From positions 1 to 23,758 of the IMG/VR virus record IMGVR_UViG_3300017755_003336: DNA of 23,758 nt. One strand, given 5' to 3'. Shown here in pieces: positions 13,506-22,267 of this stretch; position 1 is the first letter of the stretch, and each line of letters begins with the position of its first letter. Below the pieces are notes generated by a model. It made no database searches. It was not told where the DNA came from and saw only the letters and a list, made by a program, of their open reading frames with translations. The stretch is from a virus. A program made the position numbers and the translations under genes.

Positions 13506-13714
13506 AACCTTATCAACCTTTGGCTTGGTTTGCAACCGCATGTTTACTAGTGGCCGCAACAATGGCCGCATTTAATATATACCCTTGGTACATATATGCT
13601 TTTATTGCAAGTAATACATTATGGGTATTAATAGGAATACTTTGGAAAGAACGTAGTCTTATTGTTCTTAACGCAGGACTTACAGTTATATATGTTGTAG
13701 GATTAATGTTTTGA
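13496..13714 (+). CDS. Small membrane protein, 72 residues
   Basis: A 72-residue protein that is almost entirely membrane-embedded, with about three hydrophobic segments (9-27, 31-49, 54-71) and a WKER turn between the last two. The pattern (two helices, short charged loop, third helix) recalls small bacterial membrane proteins of alphaproteobacteria. It overlaps the gene before (10 bases) and after (TTGA). Function unknown; a partner of the preceding membrane protein is a reasonable guess. Confidence 0.68.
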   Translation: MVVKPYQPLAWFATACLLVAATMAAFNIYPWYIYAFIASNTLWVLIGILWKERSLIVLNAGLTVIYVVGLMF

Positions 13715-14289
13715 AGTTACTTGTTGCAGGCGACAGTTTTGCGGCAGAATGGCCAGGACACAATAGTTGGGTCAAACTGTTAGCAAAAAGTCACGATGTA
13801 ACTAATGTTGCTCAAGCAGGTTGTAGCGAATATAAAATACTTAAACAAATACAAAATGCAAACTTAGAAGACTATGATGCAGTAATAGTTAGTCATACTA
13901 GTTTGAGTAGAGTTCATACACTTGATCATCCATTGCACAAAGAAGGATTACATAAAGACTGTGATTTATTATACAACGATATAGATAGATTTAGTTTTTT
14001 CAATCCTAGTTTATCAGCGGCAAAAGGATATTTTAAATATCACTATGACGATCAGTACTATCAAACTATCTATAGTTTGTTGAGAAAAGAAATTAATAGT
14101 TTATTAAATAATAAAGTTTATATAAGTATGTCGCATATAGAAGTAGCAAAACTTTTTATATACGAAGATAATCACTTAGACTTTAGCGAATTTTGGAAAA
14201 CACACAAAGGCTCAGAGAATCATTATAACATTACAGGCAACCAAAAAATACATGATATTGTTGTTGACAAAATCAATAAATTATGTTAA
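13711..14289 (+). CDS. SGNH/GDSL-like hydrolase
   Basis: A 192-residue protein starting with TTG at 13711, supported by AGGA at 13699-13702. The opening KLLVAGDSFAAEWPG carries the GDS block of SGNH hydrolases. Near the C-terminus HYNITGNQKIHD resembles the catalytic-His block (usually DxxHPNxxGH), with Asn before the His. SGNH enzymes hydrolyse esters, including acyl groups on glycans. Similar proteins occur in marine myoviruses as far as I recall. The role is unknown; trimming of surface sugar esters is possible. The catalytic Asp is not clear, so activity is uncertain. Confidence 0.72.
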   Translation: MKLLVAGDSFAAEWPGHNSWVKLLAKSHDVTNVAQAGCSEYKILKQIQNANLEDYDAVIVSHTSLSRVHTLDHPLHKEGLHKDCDLLYNDIDRFSFFNPSLSAAKGYFKYHYDDQYYQTIYSLLRKEINSLLNNKVYISMSHIEVAKLFIYEDNHLDFSEFWKTHKGSENHYNITGNQKIHDIVVDKINKLC

Positions 14290-14292
14290 TAT
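14264..14292 (+). promoter_or_regulatory. Sigma70-like promoter of DNA polymerase
   Basis: A perfect TTGACA (14264-14269) and a TAATAT -10 (14287-14292, 4 of 6 matches) with a 17-base spacer, at the end of the SGNH gene and about 70 bases before the polymerase start. Weaker -10 than the other promoters here. Confidence 0.55.
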
Positions 14293-14334
14293 TATAGTAA
14301 TAATAAGAAACGCCCAAGAGGCATGCAGAAGGTC

Positions 14335-14357
14335 CGTTGGCCATAAGCAACGAGGAG
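14335..14357 (+). promoter_or_regulatory. Candidate gp43 translational operator hairpin and Shine-Dalgarno
   Basis: CGTTG (14335-14339) pairs perfectly with CAACG (14348-14352) around the 8-nt loop GCCATAAG. GAGGAG (14352-14357) follows immediately and shares one base with the stem, and the TTG start lies 6 bases further. T4 gp43 represses its own translation by binding a hairpin with a 5-bp stem and an 8-nt loop next to its ribosome-binding site; the architecture matches while the loop sequence differs. Confidence 0.65.
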
Positions 14358-14363
14358 ATATAA

Positions 14364-17033
14364 TTGAGTTACGTAGACGCACTATTTGATCGCGATTCTG
14401 ATATTATCAGAACAGTTGAACGTAAGGATGGAAAAAGACACTTCCATGAATACCAAGCGAAATATACATTTTATTACAAAGACCCAAGAGGCAAATACAA
14501 AAGTGTTTATGGTGATCCACTAACACGAGTTGTATGTAAAAATACAAAAGACTTTCGTAAAGAAGTTGCTATTAACAAAGGCAAGGATCTTTTTGAAAGC
14601 GACATTAATCCTATATTCCAATGTTTGAGTGAAAACTATCTTAATCAAGATGCTCCTAAACTAAACATTGCGTTCTTTGATATTGAAACTGACTTTGATC
14701 CTGAGCGTGGCTTTGCTGATCCAAGTGATCCTTTTATGCCTATTACAAGTATAAGTGTATACTTGCAATGGATGGAAACTATGGTATGTTTGGCAGTTCC
14801 GCCTAAGACACTTACTATGGACGAAGCACACAAGACACTTGAAGGTATTGAAAATGTAATGTTGTTTGAGAAAGAAGGCGACATGATCGATACTTTCTTA
14901 ACACTAATTGAAGACGCTGACATTTTATCAGGTTGGAACAGTGAAGGTTATGATATTCCGTATACTGTAAACAGAACTAGCCGTGTACTAAGCAAAGACG
15001 ACACAAGACGTTTTTGTTTGTGGGGCCAGTTGCCTAAGAAGCGTGAATATGAAAAGTATGGTAAATCAGCGGAAACCTATGACCTAGTAGGCAGAGTACA
15101 TTTAGATAGTTTGAATTTATATCGTAAATACACGTATGAAGAAAGACACACATATAGACTTGATGCCATTGGCGAAATCGAAGTTGGCGAAAACAAAGTC
15201 CCTTATGAAGGAACTTTGGATCAACTGTACAATAATGACTTTAGAAAATTCATTGAATACAACATTCAAGATACCGCACTACTGGACAAGTTGGACAAAA
15301 AACTAAGATTTATTGATCTTAGTAACGAACTAGCACACGCAAATACTGTTTTGCTACAGACCACTATGGGTGCTGTTGCAGTTACTGAACAAGCGATTGT
15401 AAACGAAGCACATCATAGAGGCTTACAAGTTCCTAATCGTAAAAAATATGATGATGGTGCAACACAAGCCGCAGGTGCATACGTTGCATTTCCTAAAAAA
15501 GGCTTACACAAGTGGATTGGTTCAATGGACTTGAACAGTCTATATCCTAGTGTTATTAGAGCCCTTAATATGGCTCCAGAAACAATCGTAGGGCAAATAC
15601 GCCCTGACATCAGCGAAGCCCGTGTACATGAAGATATGACGCTTAAAAAGAAGAGTTTTGCAGGGTCTTGGGAAGGACGCTTTAGTACAGAAGAGTATGA
15701 AGCAGTGATGGATCAAAAGCGTGATGTTTCGTTAACTGTTGATTTTGAAAATGGTCAAACTGAAGTATTCAGCGGTGCAGAAATTTATAAAATTATCTTT
15801 GACAGTAATAATCCATGGATGCTTTCATCTAATGGTACAATTTTTACAACTGAGTTTGAAGGTGTGATTCCAGGAATCTTAGCAAGATGGTATGAAGAAC
15901 GTAAAGAACTACAAGCACAACTTAAAAAAGCAAAAGATGCAGGAAATAAAATAGAAATTGAATACTGGGATAAGCGACAGTTGGTTAAGAAGATTAACTT
16001 GAACAGTTTGTATGGTGCTATCCTAAATCCAGGATGTAGATTCTTTGATAAACGTATAGGACAAAGTACAACACTAACAGGCCGTACTATTGTTAAACAC
16101 ATGTCAGCAGAAGTAAACAAAGTTATTACTGGCAAATATGATCATGTTGGCGAAGCAATGATTTATGGTGATACAGATTCTTGTTACTTTAGTGCTCATC
16201 CTGTTCTTAAAGATCAAATTGACAAAGGTCAATTACCTTGGGACAAAGACAATGTTATAAAACTGTATGATCAAGTATGCGAAGCGGCTAATGAAACGTT
16301 TCCAAAGTTTATGCTAGATGCATTTCATTGTCCGAAGAGTAGATCAGATGTTATTGCGGCGGCAAGAGAAATTGTTGCTGAAAGTGGATTGTATATTACA
16401 AAGAAACGTTATGCGGCACTAGTATATGATATTGAAGGCTTTAGAAGCGACACAGATGGAAAGCCAGGCAAAGTAAAAGCAATGGGCTTAGACTTGCGTA
16501 GATCAGATACACCTGTGTTTATGCAGGAGTTCTTAAGTGAACTATTACTTATGGTACTAACAGATATTCCGCAGAAACAAGTACTAGATCGTATTACAGA
16601 ATTCCGTAAAGAGTTTTCAGAACGTCCTGGTTGGGAGAAAGGTTCGCCTAAACGTGCAAACAAAATTGGACACTATCAACGACTAGAAGAAAAGCAAGGC
16701 AAAGCAAACATGCCCGGTCATGTAAGAGCAAGCATCAACTGGAACACACTTAAACGTATGAACAGCGACAAGTATTCACAAGAAATTGTAGATGGTATGA
16801 AAGTTATTGTTTGCAAACTAAAACAGAATCCGCTAGGATATACAAGTGTTGCGTATCCTACAGACGAATTGCGTATTCCAGAATGGTTTAAAGAACTGCC
16901 ATTTGATGATGCGGCAATGGCAGAAACTATTATTGACAACAAACTAGACAATTTGATTGGAGTGCTTAACTATCCACTAGAAGATACTAAGCAAAACACA
17001 ACATTTGGAAGTTTATTTGAGTTTGGAGTATAA
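14364..17033 (+). CDS. gp43: Family B replicative DNA polymerase (T4 gp43-like)
   Basis: An 889-residue polymerase, close to T4 gp43 (898). The 3'-5' exonuclease motif FDIET is at 105-109 (Asp106, Glu108). Polymerase motif A DLNSLYPS is at 389-396, motif B KKINLNSLYGA starts at 542 and motif C GDTDS is at 602-606, so all catalytic aspartates are present. The start is TTG at 14364, fixed by GAGGAG 6 bases upstream; the N-terminus aligns with marine T4-like homologues as I recall them. It copies the phage genome with the clamp encoded at 19782. No intein or split is seen. Expression is probably set by the promoter at 14264 and the hairpin before the start. Confidence 0.98.
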   Translation: MSYVDALFDRDSDIIRTVERKDGKRHFHEYQAKYTFYYKDPRGKYKSVYGDPLTRVVCKNTKDFRKEVAINKGKDLFESDINPIFQCLSENYLNQDAPKLNIAFFDIETDFDPERGFADPSDPFMPITSISVYLQWMETMVCLAVPPKTLTMDEAHKTLEGIENVMLFEKEGDMIDTFLTLIEDADILSGWNSEGYDIPYTVNRTSRVLSKDDTRRFCLWGQLPKKREYEKYGKSAETYDLVGRVHLDSLNLYRKYTYEERHTYRLDAIGEIEVGENKVPYEGTLDQLYNNDFRKFIEYNIQDTALLDKLDKKLRFIDLSNELAHANTVLLQTTMGAVAVTEQAIVNEAHHRGLQVPNRKKYDDGATQAAGAYVAFPKKGLHKWIGSMDLNSLYPSVIRALNMAPETIVGQIRPDISEARVHEDMTLKKKSFAGSWEGRFSTEEYEAVMDQKRDVSLTVDFENGQTEVFSGAEIYKIIFDSNNPWMLSSNGTIFTTEFEGVIPGILARWYEERKELQAQLKKAKDAGNKIEIEYWDKRQLVKKINLNSLYGAILNPGCRFFDKRIGQSTTLTGRTIVKHMSAEVNKVITGKYDHVGEAMIYGDTDSCYFSAHPVLKDQIDKGQLPWDKDNVIKLYDQVCEAANETFPKFMLDAFHCPKSRSDVIAAAREIVAESGLYITKKRYAALVYDIEGFRSDTDGKPGKVKAMGLDLRRSDTPVFMQEFLSELLLMVLTDIPQKQVLDRITEFRKEFSERPGWEKGSPKRANKIGHYQRLEEKQGKANMPGHVRASINWNTLKRMNSDKYSQEIVDGMKVIVCKLKQNPLGYTSVAYPTDELRIPEWFKELPFDDAAMAETIIDNKLDNLIGVLNYPLEDTKQNTTFGSLFEFGV

Positions 17034-20517: not shown

Positions 20518-20712
20518 ATGACAGATGATAGATCAGAAGATGCAACATACGAAAACGAAAATAGTACAGTAACGATACCTTTGAGAGAATACGATAAGTT
20601 ACGTGAGCGTCAATCATATATTACTGATAAAAGTTTAATTGGTATAATTGATAAGTTAGAAGAACTTGTTAGAGCATTGAGAAAACATATAGTAAGGACG
20701 GATTTTGATTAA
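20518..20712 (+). CDS. Small acidic helical protein, 64 residues
   Basis: ATG 20518 is chosen because TAGGAG at 20508-20513 lies just upstream; the frame is open further into the clamp gene but without a ribosome site. The N-terminal 20 residues are acidic and polar, the rest forms a charged amphipathic helix (REYDKLRERQ, then IIDKLEELVRALRKH). No family recognised. It overlaps the start of the transglycosylase-like gene by 8 bases. Confidence 0.65.
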   Translation: MTDDRSEDATYENENSTVTIPLREYDKLRERQSYITDKSLIGIIDKLEELVRALRKHIVRTDFD

Positions 20713-22267
20713 TAAAGATTTAACAGCGACACAGAACGACTACGCACATTTTTTGCCAGCATTGAGCGGCTTCTATGCAACATATGTAGGTAAGCAACGC
20801 TTTCCTGATCCTGTTAAAGGTCCTTATATCGAAGATACACGTATTCCTGCCAATTGGAATAGTGGTGTAGAAAGTCTTAACTATCTTAATGCAAAAGAAG
20901 GAGCGTTTACATATAAGTGGACACTCTATTCTGCAGGACATGCTGACTTAGATACAAATAAAATTGTACCTAAAGAAGATATGGTGCGTAATAGAGATAG
21001 AGATAACACTTGGTTACTAGGCGACTCAGGTGGTTTCCAGATTGGTAAAGGTGTTTGGGAAGGCGATTGGAAAGATCCTAATTGTCCTAAAGCACAAAAG
21101 AAAAGAGATGGCGTTCTTCGTTGGATGGACGCTTATATGGACTATGGAATGATACTTGATATTCCAGCCTGGGTAGCACGTTCTCCAGAAGGTGCAAAAG
21201 CAACAGGCATTAGTACATATGCAGAAGCAGTTAAGGCAACACGTATTAACAACGACTACTGGATGAAACATAGAACAGGTGCTTGTAAGTTCCTTAATGT
21301 TTTACAAGGTGAAAATCATACAGATGCTGATGACTGGTATGAGCAGATGAAAGACTACTGTGATCCAGTTAAGTATCCTGACAATCATTTTAATGGTTGG
21401 TCGATGGGTGGACAGAACATGTGCGATGTGCATTTGGTTCTTAAACGCATAGTTACATTGCATTATGATAACCTGTTACAACAAGGTGTACACGATGTAA
21501 TGCATTTCTTAGGCACATCTAAACTAGAATGGGCTACACTATTAACTGACATACAACGTGCTATACGCAAGTATTATAACCCTAACATGATGCTTACATT
21601 TGATTGTGCTTCACCTTTCTTAGCAACTGCTAACGGACAAGTATACATTCAAAATGAAACTCCTGATAGAGGCAAATGGACTTATCGAATGGTACCTAGT
21701 ATTGATGATAAGAAGTATGCTACTGATACACGTACATTTAAAGATGCAGTATTACAAGATGGAATATTTAAAAACTTTGAAGACAGTCCTGTAACAGACG
21801 GTATGCTTGTAAAAGACATTTGTGTTTATAAGCCAGGAGACCTAAATAAGATAGGTAAAGAAGGAAAAACATCGTGGGATAGTTTTTCATATGCGATCCA
21901 AATGGGTCATAACGTGTGGAGTCACATCAATGCAGTGCAAGAAGCAAACAGACAATATGATGCAGGCATTATTCCTAAAATGCTTGTACAAGAGCAATTT
22001 GACAGGATACTATTCAGAGATGTTGTGGAAGAAATATTCTCAAAGACTACAAGAGAAGAATCACTAGCAGTAATTGATCAGTATTCAAAGTTTTGGATGT
22101 CCATTCCGGGTACACGTGGCGCTATTGGTAAAAAGACTGTTAATGCAAGTACACACTTTAATGCATTGTTTGACGTAGAAGAAACAACTGTTGAAGAAGA
22201 TAGTGAATTAGATGAAACTAAGTTGGAGGAGTTAGAAGATGAGCAATTACACGGAGCAACACGATAA
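20705..22267 (+). CDS. tRNA-guanine transglycosylase/DpdA-like protein
   Basis: A 520-residue protein with the hallmark motifs of the TGT fold in order. GDSGGFQ carries Asp107, equivalent to the base-binding Asp of DSGGFQ in TGT. LNVLQGE corresponds to the VQGG loop and GWSMGGQ to the GG loop. TFDCASPFLATANGQVYI carries Asp300, equivalent to the nucleophile in FDCVxPTRxARNG. TGT swaps guanine for 7-deazaguanine in tRNA; the related DpdA does so in phage or bacterial DNA. The CxCxxC zinc site is not evident; only a VWSHINAVQEANRQY helix recalls the following His-containing helix. TTG 20705 is supported by AAGGA at 20694-20698. The acidic C-terminus is extra. DNA versus tRNA as target is unresolved. 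Confidence 0.8.
   Translation: MINKDLTATQNDYAHFLPALSGFYATYVGKQRFPDPVKGPYIEDTRIPANWNSGVESLNYLNAKEGAFTYKWTLYSAGHADLDTNKIVPKEDMVRNRDRDNTWLLGDSGGFQIGKGVWEGDWKDPNCPKAQKKRDGVLRWMDAYMDYGMILDIPAWVARSPEGAKATGISTYAEAVKATRINNDYWMKHRTGACKFLNVLQGENHTDADDWYEQMKDYCDPVKYPDNHFNGWSMGGQNMCDVHLVLKRIVTLHYDNLLQQGVHDVMHFLGTSKLEWATLLTDIQRAIRKYYNPNMMLTFDCASPFLATANGQVYIQNETPDRGKWTYRMVPSIDDKKYATDTRTFKDAVLQDGIFKNFEDSPVTDGMLVKDICVYKPGDLNKIGKEGKTSWDSFSYAIQMGHNVWSHINAVQEANRQYDAGIIPKMLVQEQFDRILFRDVVEEIFSKTTREESLAVIDQYSKFWMSIPGTRGAIGKKTVNASTHFNALFDVEETTVEEDSELDETKLEELEDEQLHGATR

Follow-up and report, generated by a model that had tools for sequence, protein, structure and literature searches.

Bacteriophage T4 DNA polymerase, gp43, uses a hairpin in the leader of its mRNA to repress its own translation; some T4 relatives lack gp43 autoregulation, and no evidence of a pseudoknot has been reported for the gene 43 operator (PMC3014915). 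The leader of T4 gene 32 does contain a knot, possibly the only viral pseudoknot involved in translational autoregulation (PMC3014915). Read from NC_000866, the T4 gene 43 operator is AGCCU AAUAACUC GGGCU. In that leader (minus strand; L296 in our collection), a GAGU ~13 nt before the operator hairpin complements ACUC in its loop, a knot for which there is no literature support. The loops of T4-type operators contain UAAC, with the variants CAAC and, in RB49, UAAA. The autoregulation of T4 gene 43 reportedly founded SELEX, as the target of Tuerk and Gold. To our knowledge, few natural gene 43 operators have been described outside the close relatives of T4. Among cellular genes, ribosomal-protein operators such as that of Escherichia coli rpsO, bound by S15, consist of a protein-stabilised pseudoknot over the ribosome-binding site.

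The window analysed here is the whole 23,758-nt stretch of viral DNA in IMG/VR record IMGVR_UViG_3300017755_003336. A preliminary description had placed a hairpin directly before its polymerase gene, and reading the sequence bore this out: CGTTG at 14335-14339, the loop GCCATAAG at 14340-14347 and CAACG at 14348-14352, with base 14352 shared with the GAGGAG at 14352-14357 and the gp43 open reading frame (ORF) beginning with TTG at 14364. The parts of the leader are listed in Table 1. Taken by itself, the window hairpin is a modest signal, as 1.3% of dinucleotide-shuffled versions of the 64-nt leader contain some exact hairpin of 5 bp with an 8-nt loop; 0.02% match the descriptor of the full pseudoknot. 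Nested folding of the isolated 91-nt stretch favoured another fold, the hairpin not being the minimum-energy structure (z = +0.8). Since nested folding cannot represent pseudoknots, this z score is uninformative, and the evidence for the knot is comparative.

Table 1. Parts of the gp43 leader in the window, with the probable promoter and the polymerase gene.
Feature	Position	Strand	Basis or remark
-35-like TTGACA of the probable gp43 promoter	14264..14269	+	within the 3' end of the upstream ORF; TTGACA-17-TAATAT scores 10/12
-10-like TAATAT	14287..14292	+	sequence and promoter scoring; transcript start expected near 14299
P1, short 5' hairpin GCC(CAAGA)GGC	14312..14322	+	sequence differs among relatives
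S1 5' strand GGU	14331..14333	+	partner is 14340-14342
L1	14334	+	single base between the S1 and S2 5' strands
S2 5' strand CGUUG	14335..14339	+	conserved core 14336-14339; covariation
S1 3' strand GCC	14340..14342	+	first three bases of the 8-nt loop
L3 AUAAG	14343..14347	+	consensus NNAAR
S2 3' strand CAACG	14348..14352	+	core 14348-14351; adjoins the Shine-Dalgarno
Shine-Dalgarno GAGGAG	14352..14357	+	sequence; base 14352 common to the S2 3' strand
gp43, family B DNA polymerase, 889 aa, TTG start	14364..17033	+	Pfam, PHROG and RB69 structure matches

The gene downstream of the hairpin codes for the exonuclease and polymerase domains of a family B polymerase (Pfam PF00136/PF03104), and its relation to T4/RB69 gp43 was found in matches to phrog_262 (E=2e-196) and to the RB69 gp43 structures (E=4e-63). 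The window polymerase is nevertheless distant from T4 gp43, with ~26% identity in comparable matches, and T4-type RNA binding is therefore not to be assumed. Upstream of the leader we found promoter-like hexamers, TTGACA-17-TAATAT in the window and TTGACA-17-TATACT in the leader L306. Promoter-like scores of at least 10/12 were obtained for 26% of 188 distinct upstream regions, as against 3.3% of shuffles, and this excess indicates that the hairpin region probably lies near the 5' end of the gp43 transcript.

Several neighbouring genes were also read. An 87-aa protein encoded at 12961-13224 matches phrog_639 (transcriptional regulator) and phrog_12534, and its homologue precedes gp43 in several relatives. 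The ORF at 13711-14289, whose 3' end holds the -35 hexamer, codes for 192 aa starting MKLLVAGDSFAAEW and looks SGNH-hydrolase-like by eye; it had no Pfam or PHROG match. Downstream of gp43, the 242-aa protein encoded at 19782-20510 matches phrog_12062 (unknown function) and may be a sliding clamp, as a similarly placed protein of phage Phosso is so annotated. The 520-aa protein encoded at 20705-22267 is by eye reminiscent of tRNA-guanine transglycosylase/DpdA-like enzymes, and it had no match in Pfam or PHROG either.

For comparison, we fetched 80 relatives of the window polymerase (88-100% identity), and three further sets of more distant polymerases also supplied leaders. As the leaders were collected by gp43 similarity, many are kin, for which counting on the tree and the use of independent groups correct in part; the relatives' contigs are incomplete. 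Just before the start codon, most of the 80 relatives have a variable hairpin, a linker, a near-constant AAGGUU-A(A)-GUUGGCCAUAAGCAAC and then the Shine-Dalgarno (SD). In the more distant sets, the stem of the window hairpin, S2, takes many other forms (GUCG/CGAC, GCAG/CUGC, GCGA/UCGC, GCAA/UUGC, UCCA/UGGA, AUCA/UGAU, GUCC/GGAC, CCG/CGG, GUGG/CCAC and others). Twenty types of its inner four pairs occur among 240 distinct gp43 leaders with pairing kept, and the type switches about 27 times on the gp43 tree, again with pairing retained. A 34-row alignment has two-sided changes at all five S2 pairs tested, and its covariation score is 0.80, compared with 0.32 for shuffled alignments (0/500) and at most 0.23 for slid registers. 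Some tests used a descriptor that demands pairing, and our claims rest on those that do not. Thus, when leaders were anchored by sequence alone, all four S2 pairs were present in 45 of 46 distinct leader units versus 12 of 162 in the background. The motif was also present in 42 of the 45 leaders of group 2, relatives that had been left out of its definition. Between the end of S2 and the start codon there are 4 to 18 nt. The upstream hairpin, P1, varies as well (GCUC/GAGC, GUUC/GAAC, GCAC/GUGC and others); it was detected in 111 of 188 upstream regions, a count biased by a search that required pairing.

The loop of the hairpin is conserved along with its stem. Its bases 1-3 are nearly always GCC, and a GGY lies 0-4 nt 5' of the first S2 strand. 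We collected every leader hairpin that had a stem of 4 bp or more and an NNN-NNAAN loop, without assuming a second stem. GGY was in place for 116 of the 117 GCC loops and AGY for all four true GCU loops (L042, L265, L389 and L409, from three separately fetched groups), while the remaining chance hairpins had a complementary triplet in 3 of 34 cases. It follows that the element is an H-type pseudoknot, with S1 formed by 14331-14333 and 14340-14342. Judged by these pairing patterns, the window hairpin is half of an H-type RNA pseudoknot. The commonest state of S1 retains a U.G pair (90 of 113 units), and its dominance points to RNA rather than DNA. L3 follows the form NNAAR, commonly AUAAG, ACAAG or AUAAA, with both A invariant in A3; these two adenines appear to be essentially the only conserved unpaired positions.

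The core of the preliminary description was confirmed by covariation, the anchor search and the contig scans: a compensated stem and an 8-nt loop, both conserved, lie directly before gp43, touch the ribosome-binding site and are specific for this locus. It also survived the refuting test that it had named, which asked whether relatives are without the hairpin or have uncompensated stem changes. A conserved RNA in the gp43 leader is thus retained, but the T4 geometry attributed to it is not. S2 has a four-pair core and a length of 3-7 bp, loop bases 1-3 are paired with GGY, and tandem copies occur. The stem of exactly 5 bp is a feature of the window, the fifth pair (14335-14352) being unpaired in 16 of the 34 alignment rows and A.G or A.A in many of the close relatives. 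The competing fold suggested between CCAA (14314-14317) and TTGG (14337-14340) was abandoned, as it is absent in relatives without CCAA in the upstream hairpin, for instance L013 and L057.

The element occurs in several arrangements. The window type has P1 followed by one knot. Tandem leaders have two knots of one plan, with two units detected by the descriptor in 40 of the 45 group 2 leaders; in L214, GGU-CA-GUCG-GCC-AUAAA-CGAC is followed by GGU-AUU-UGCCA-GCC-GCAAG-UGGCA and then by the SD. The upstream copy of tandem leaders makes no contact with the SD. In L089 and L138, the knot has no start codon immediately after it and had been considered a stand-alone small RNA, a reading that was dropped because gp43 lies 46 nt downstream, past a second pseudoknot. 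Group 3, composed of kin of the Phosso polymerase (~50% identity), combines the P1 GAGUCGCUCACGUUACGAGC with one knot. The S2 3' strand of this knot shares bases with the SD in 7 of 11 units and directly adjoins it in the remaining 4. The strand is part of the SD in L425 (CCG..CGGAG), L426 (CCA..UGGAG) and L436 (UCCA..UGGAG).

In displaced leaders, a gene stands between the knot and gp43. It codes for a phrog_7084 protein in L006 and a 2OG-Fe(II) oxygenase in L050, it matches a PHROG labelled ferrochelatase in L212 and codes for a tryptophan halogenase in L123. Relative to the start of gp43, the inserted ORFs end at -4, 0, +12 and 0 nt in the four cases read, which is consistent with coupling. 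With L087, these four have differing auxiliary genes at one spot between operator and gp43, a cargo hot spot. Lineages with such a far copy had at one stage been taken for leaders without the element, until it was found before the inserted gene instead. In L167 (2050-2830), the whole leader, P1 and pseudoknot, is near-exactly duplicated, before an SGNH-like ORF and before gp43, which looks like a gene insertion that kept the operator for both genes. The second copy reads in frame as the end of the inserted SGNH-like ORF. Finally, the element is absent in 56 of 242 leaders, about a quarter; in the examples read, there is hardly any leader, or none, between the preceding gene and gp43. Nor does the element occur in the cultured phages whose gp43s are nearest, namely Phosso, Atu_ph07, 121Q and Vibrio 2.275.O. 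Both sets of absences indicate that it is dispensable.

We then asked how far the element is tied to gp43. A covariance model of the unit (R1) gave significant matches at the gp43 locus only in 30 long contigs, and it matched the window with E=1.4e-5. Its weak matches elsewhere in these contigs (E 0.26-5) were dismissed as noise; three were read, none with a GGY/GCC knot. A DNA pattern blind to gp43, GTTGGCCNNAAGCAAC, had 92 matches with knot context, 82 of them with gp43 at most 2 kb downstream. Of these, 62 immediately precede gp43, and in 20 a gene intervenes. The ten that remain appear to be chance hits in the coding sequence of other phages, which is richer in G+C. A 19-base version of the pattern yielded just two matches in 84,980 prokaryote genomes, both within ORFs. 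In every case, the element lies on the strand that codes for gp43 or for the cistron preceding it. The Rfam 15 covariance models, run at loose thresholds on the window and its relatives, gave nothing relevant up to E=5-10, only chance matches.

Altogether, the sequences establish a conserved structure with compensatory changes in both stems, specific for the gp43 locus and positioned at the ribosome-binding site. They strongly suggest translational control by the element, and the phage probably controls the amount of its polymerase via a knot on or beside the ribosome landing site. We lean towards the view that the gp43 mRNA carries a pseudoknot translational operator as its 5' leader and that the ligand of this operator is gp43 itself, as in T4. 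The RNA start site, the occlusion of initiation, the identity of the ligand and cooperativity are what we infer in this mechanism. The RNA would start ~65 nt before gp43, and its leader would fold into the P1 hairpin, then the H-type pseudoknot, whose 3' strand abuts the SD in the window and contains it in distant relatives. With 3 plus 4-5 bp, the knot alone would be only marginally stable, and hence a ligand that clamps it would exclude the 30S subunit. Polymerase not engaged on DNA would bind its own leader and lower gp43 synthesis, and tandem copies would make repression steeper and cooperative. gp43 appears to be the best candidate for the ligand because the element occurs at gp43 only, follows this gene through changes of the upstream gene and is kept upon gene insertion, by coupling or duplication, and because of the T4 precedent (PMC3014915).

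The knot might instead be an operator of gp43 with another protein ligand, such as the phage single-stranded DNA-binding protein (SSB), the clamp or clamp loader, or a host ribosomal or RNA-binding protein. We consider this doubtful, if plausible: nothing in the RNA names the ligand, and the T4 gene 32 operator is likewise a leader pseudoknot, bound by gp32 (PMC3014915), but a regulator with multiple targets should have more sites, and the element is found only at gp43 in the long contigs. RegA was set aside as the ligand after no homologue was found in 11 phage records, possibly incomplete; RegA was recovered by that search from the positive controls, T4 and HTVC008M. An element that acts without ligand, by stabilising the mRNA 5' end or by fixing a low initiation rate, would fit a position shortly after promoter-like sequences, close to where the RNA probably begins, and the small number of conserved unpaired bases. 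It is unlikely, however, given that S1 and the two adenines of L3 hardly vary when many other short stems would be equally stable, and that the element is confined to one gene.

Small pseudoknot riboswitches that overlap the SD exist, preQ1 and SAM-II among them, and the copies found here can be in tandem. A small-molecule riboswitch made of H-type pseudoknots, sometimes tandem, for instance a nucleotide-sensing one, is nevertheless improbable, as two conserved unpaired adenines offer little for a binding pocket, Rfam has no match, none stands at metabolic genes and the two prokaryotic matches are inside ORFs. A simple hairpin operator of the T4 type, whose 8-nt loop would be new and unpaired, is what the 5 bp and 8 nt of the window would suggest if viewed alone. 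We regard it as very improbable in light of the GGY opposite loop bases 1-3 in 116 of 117 cases, the compensatory GCU/AGY and the unconserved fifth pair. That the element acts at the DNA level, as a replication origin or a protein-binding palindrome, is scarcely credible: it does lie in front of a replication gene, but invariably in the coding orientation of gp43 or of the preceding cistron and tied to the SD, and the complementary DNA strand offers nothing equivalent to the U.G pair that dominates S1.

The element is carried by T4-like phages, uncultured and mostly marine, that form a large family. Under the operator reading, it could well represent a new RNA family of single or tandem H-type pseudoknots, serving as protein-bound operators of the replicative polymerase, with two-site cooperative autoregulation in the tandems; it would be the first pseudoknot operator at a phage polymerase gene, spread over a large uncultured T4-like clade. 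A covarying RNA family missing from Rfam is found in abundant environmental phages. Well over 100 distinct leaders combine single, tandem, lost and displaced operators with the adjacent polymerase sequences, and with such a comparative set the evolution of a protein-RNA autoregulatory pair is directly testable.

The closest known system is the gene 43 operator of T4, RB69 and RB49, which controls the same gene from a leader site overlapping or next to the ribosome-binding site and has an 8-nt apical loop. Our element differs from it by the H-type knot with S1 GGY/GCC, the stem of 3-7 bp, the frequent tandem arrangement and the remote polymerase. The YAAR of L3 resembles the YAAC/UAAA loop bases of T4, RB69 and RB49, a weak likeness of three or four bases, as AA-rich loops are common. 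The gene 32 pseudoknot of T4, T2 and RB69, which mediates gp32 autoregulation, is also a leader knot of a phage replication protein gene that exerts translational control, but it is located 67 nt before the start codon and seeds the cooperative binding of gp32 over an A+U-rich stretch (PMC3014915). In contrast, the element described here abuts or contains the SD, has a different sequence and stands only at gp43, not at gene 32 (SSB). The STAXI motif (Weinberg 2010) also consists of tandem pseudoknots near genes of DNA-handling proteins, but its repeats often have UUCG tetraloops and lie near SSB, topoisomerase, antirestriction and integrase genes (PMC2864571), and our element has no Rfam match. 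The likeness to operators of the rpsO/S15 type is one of kind, with another gene, sequence and host, and we claim no homology. On balance, the element would work like the T4 gene 43 operator with a different structure, and it resembles the gene 32 knot in kind.
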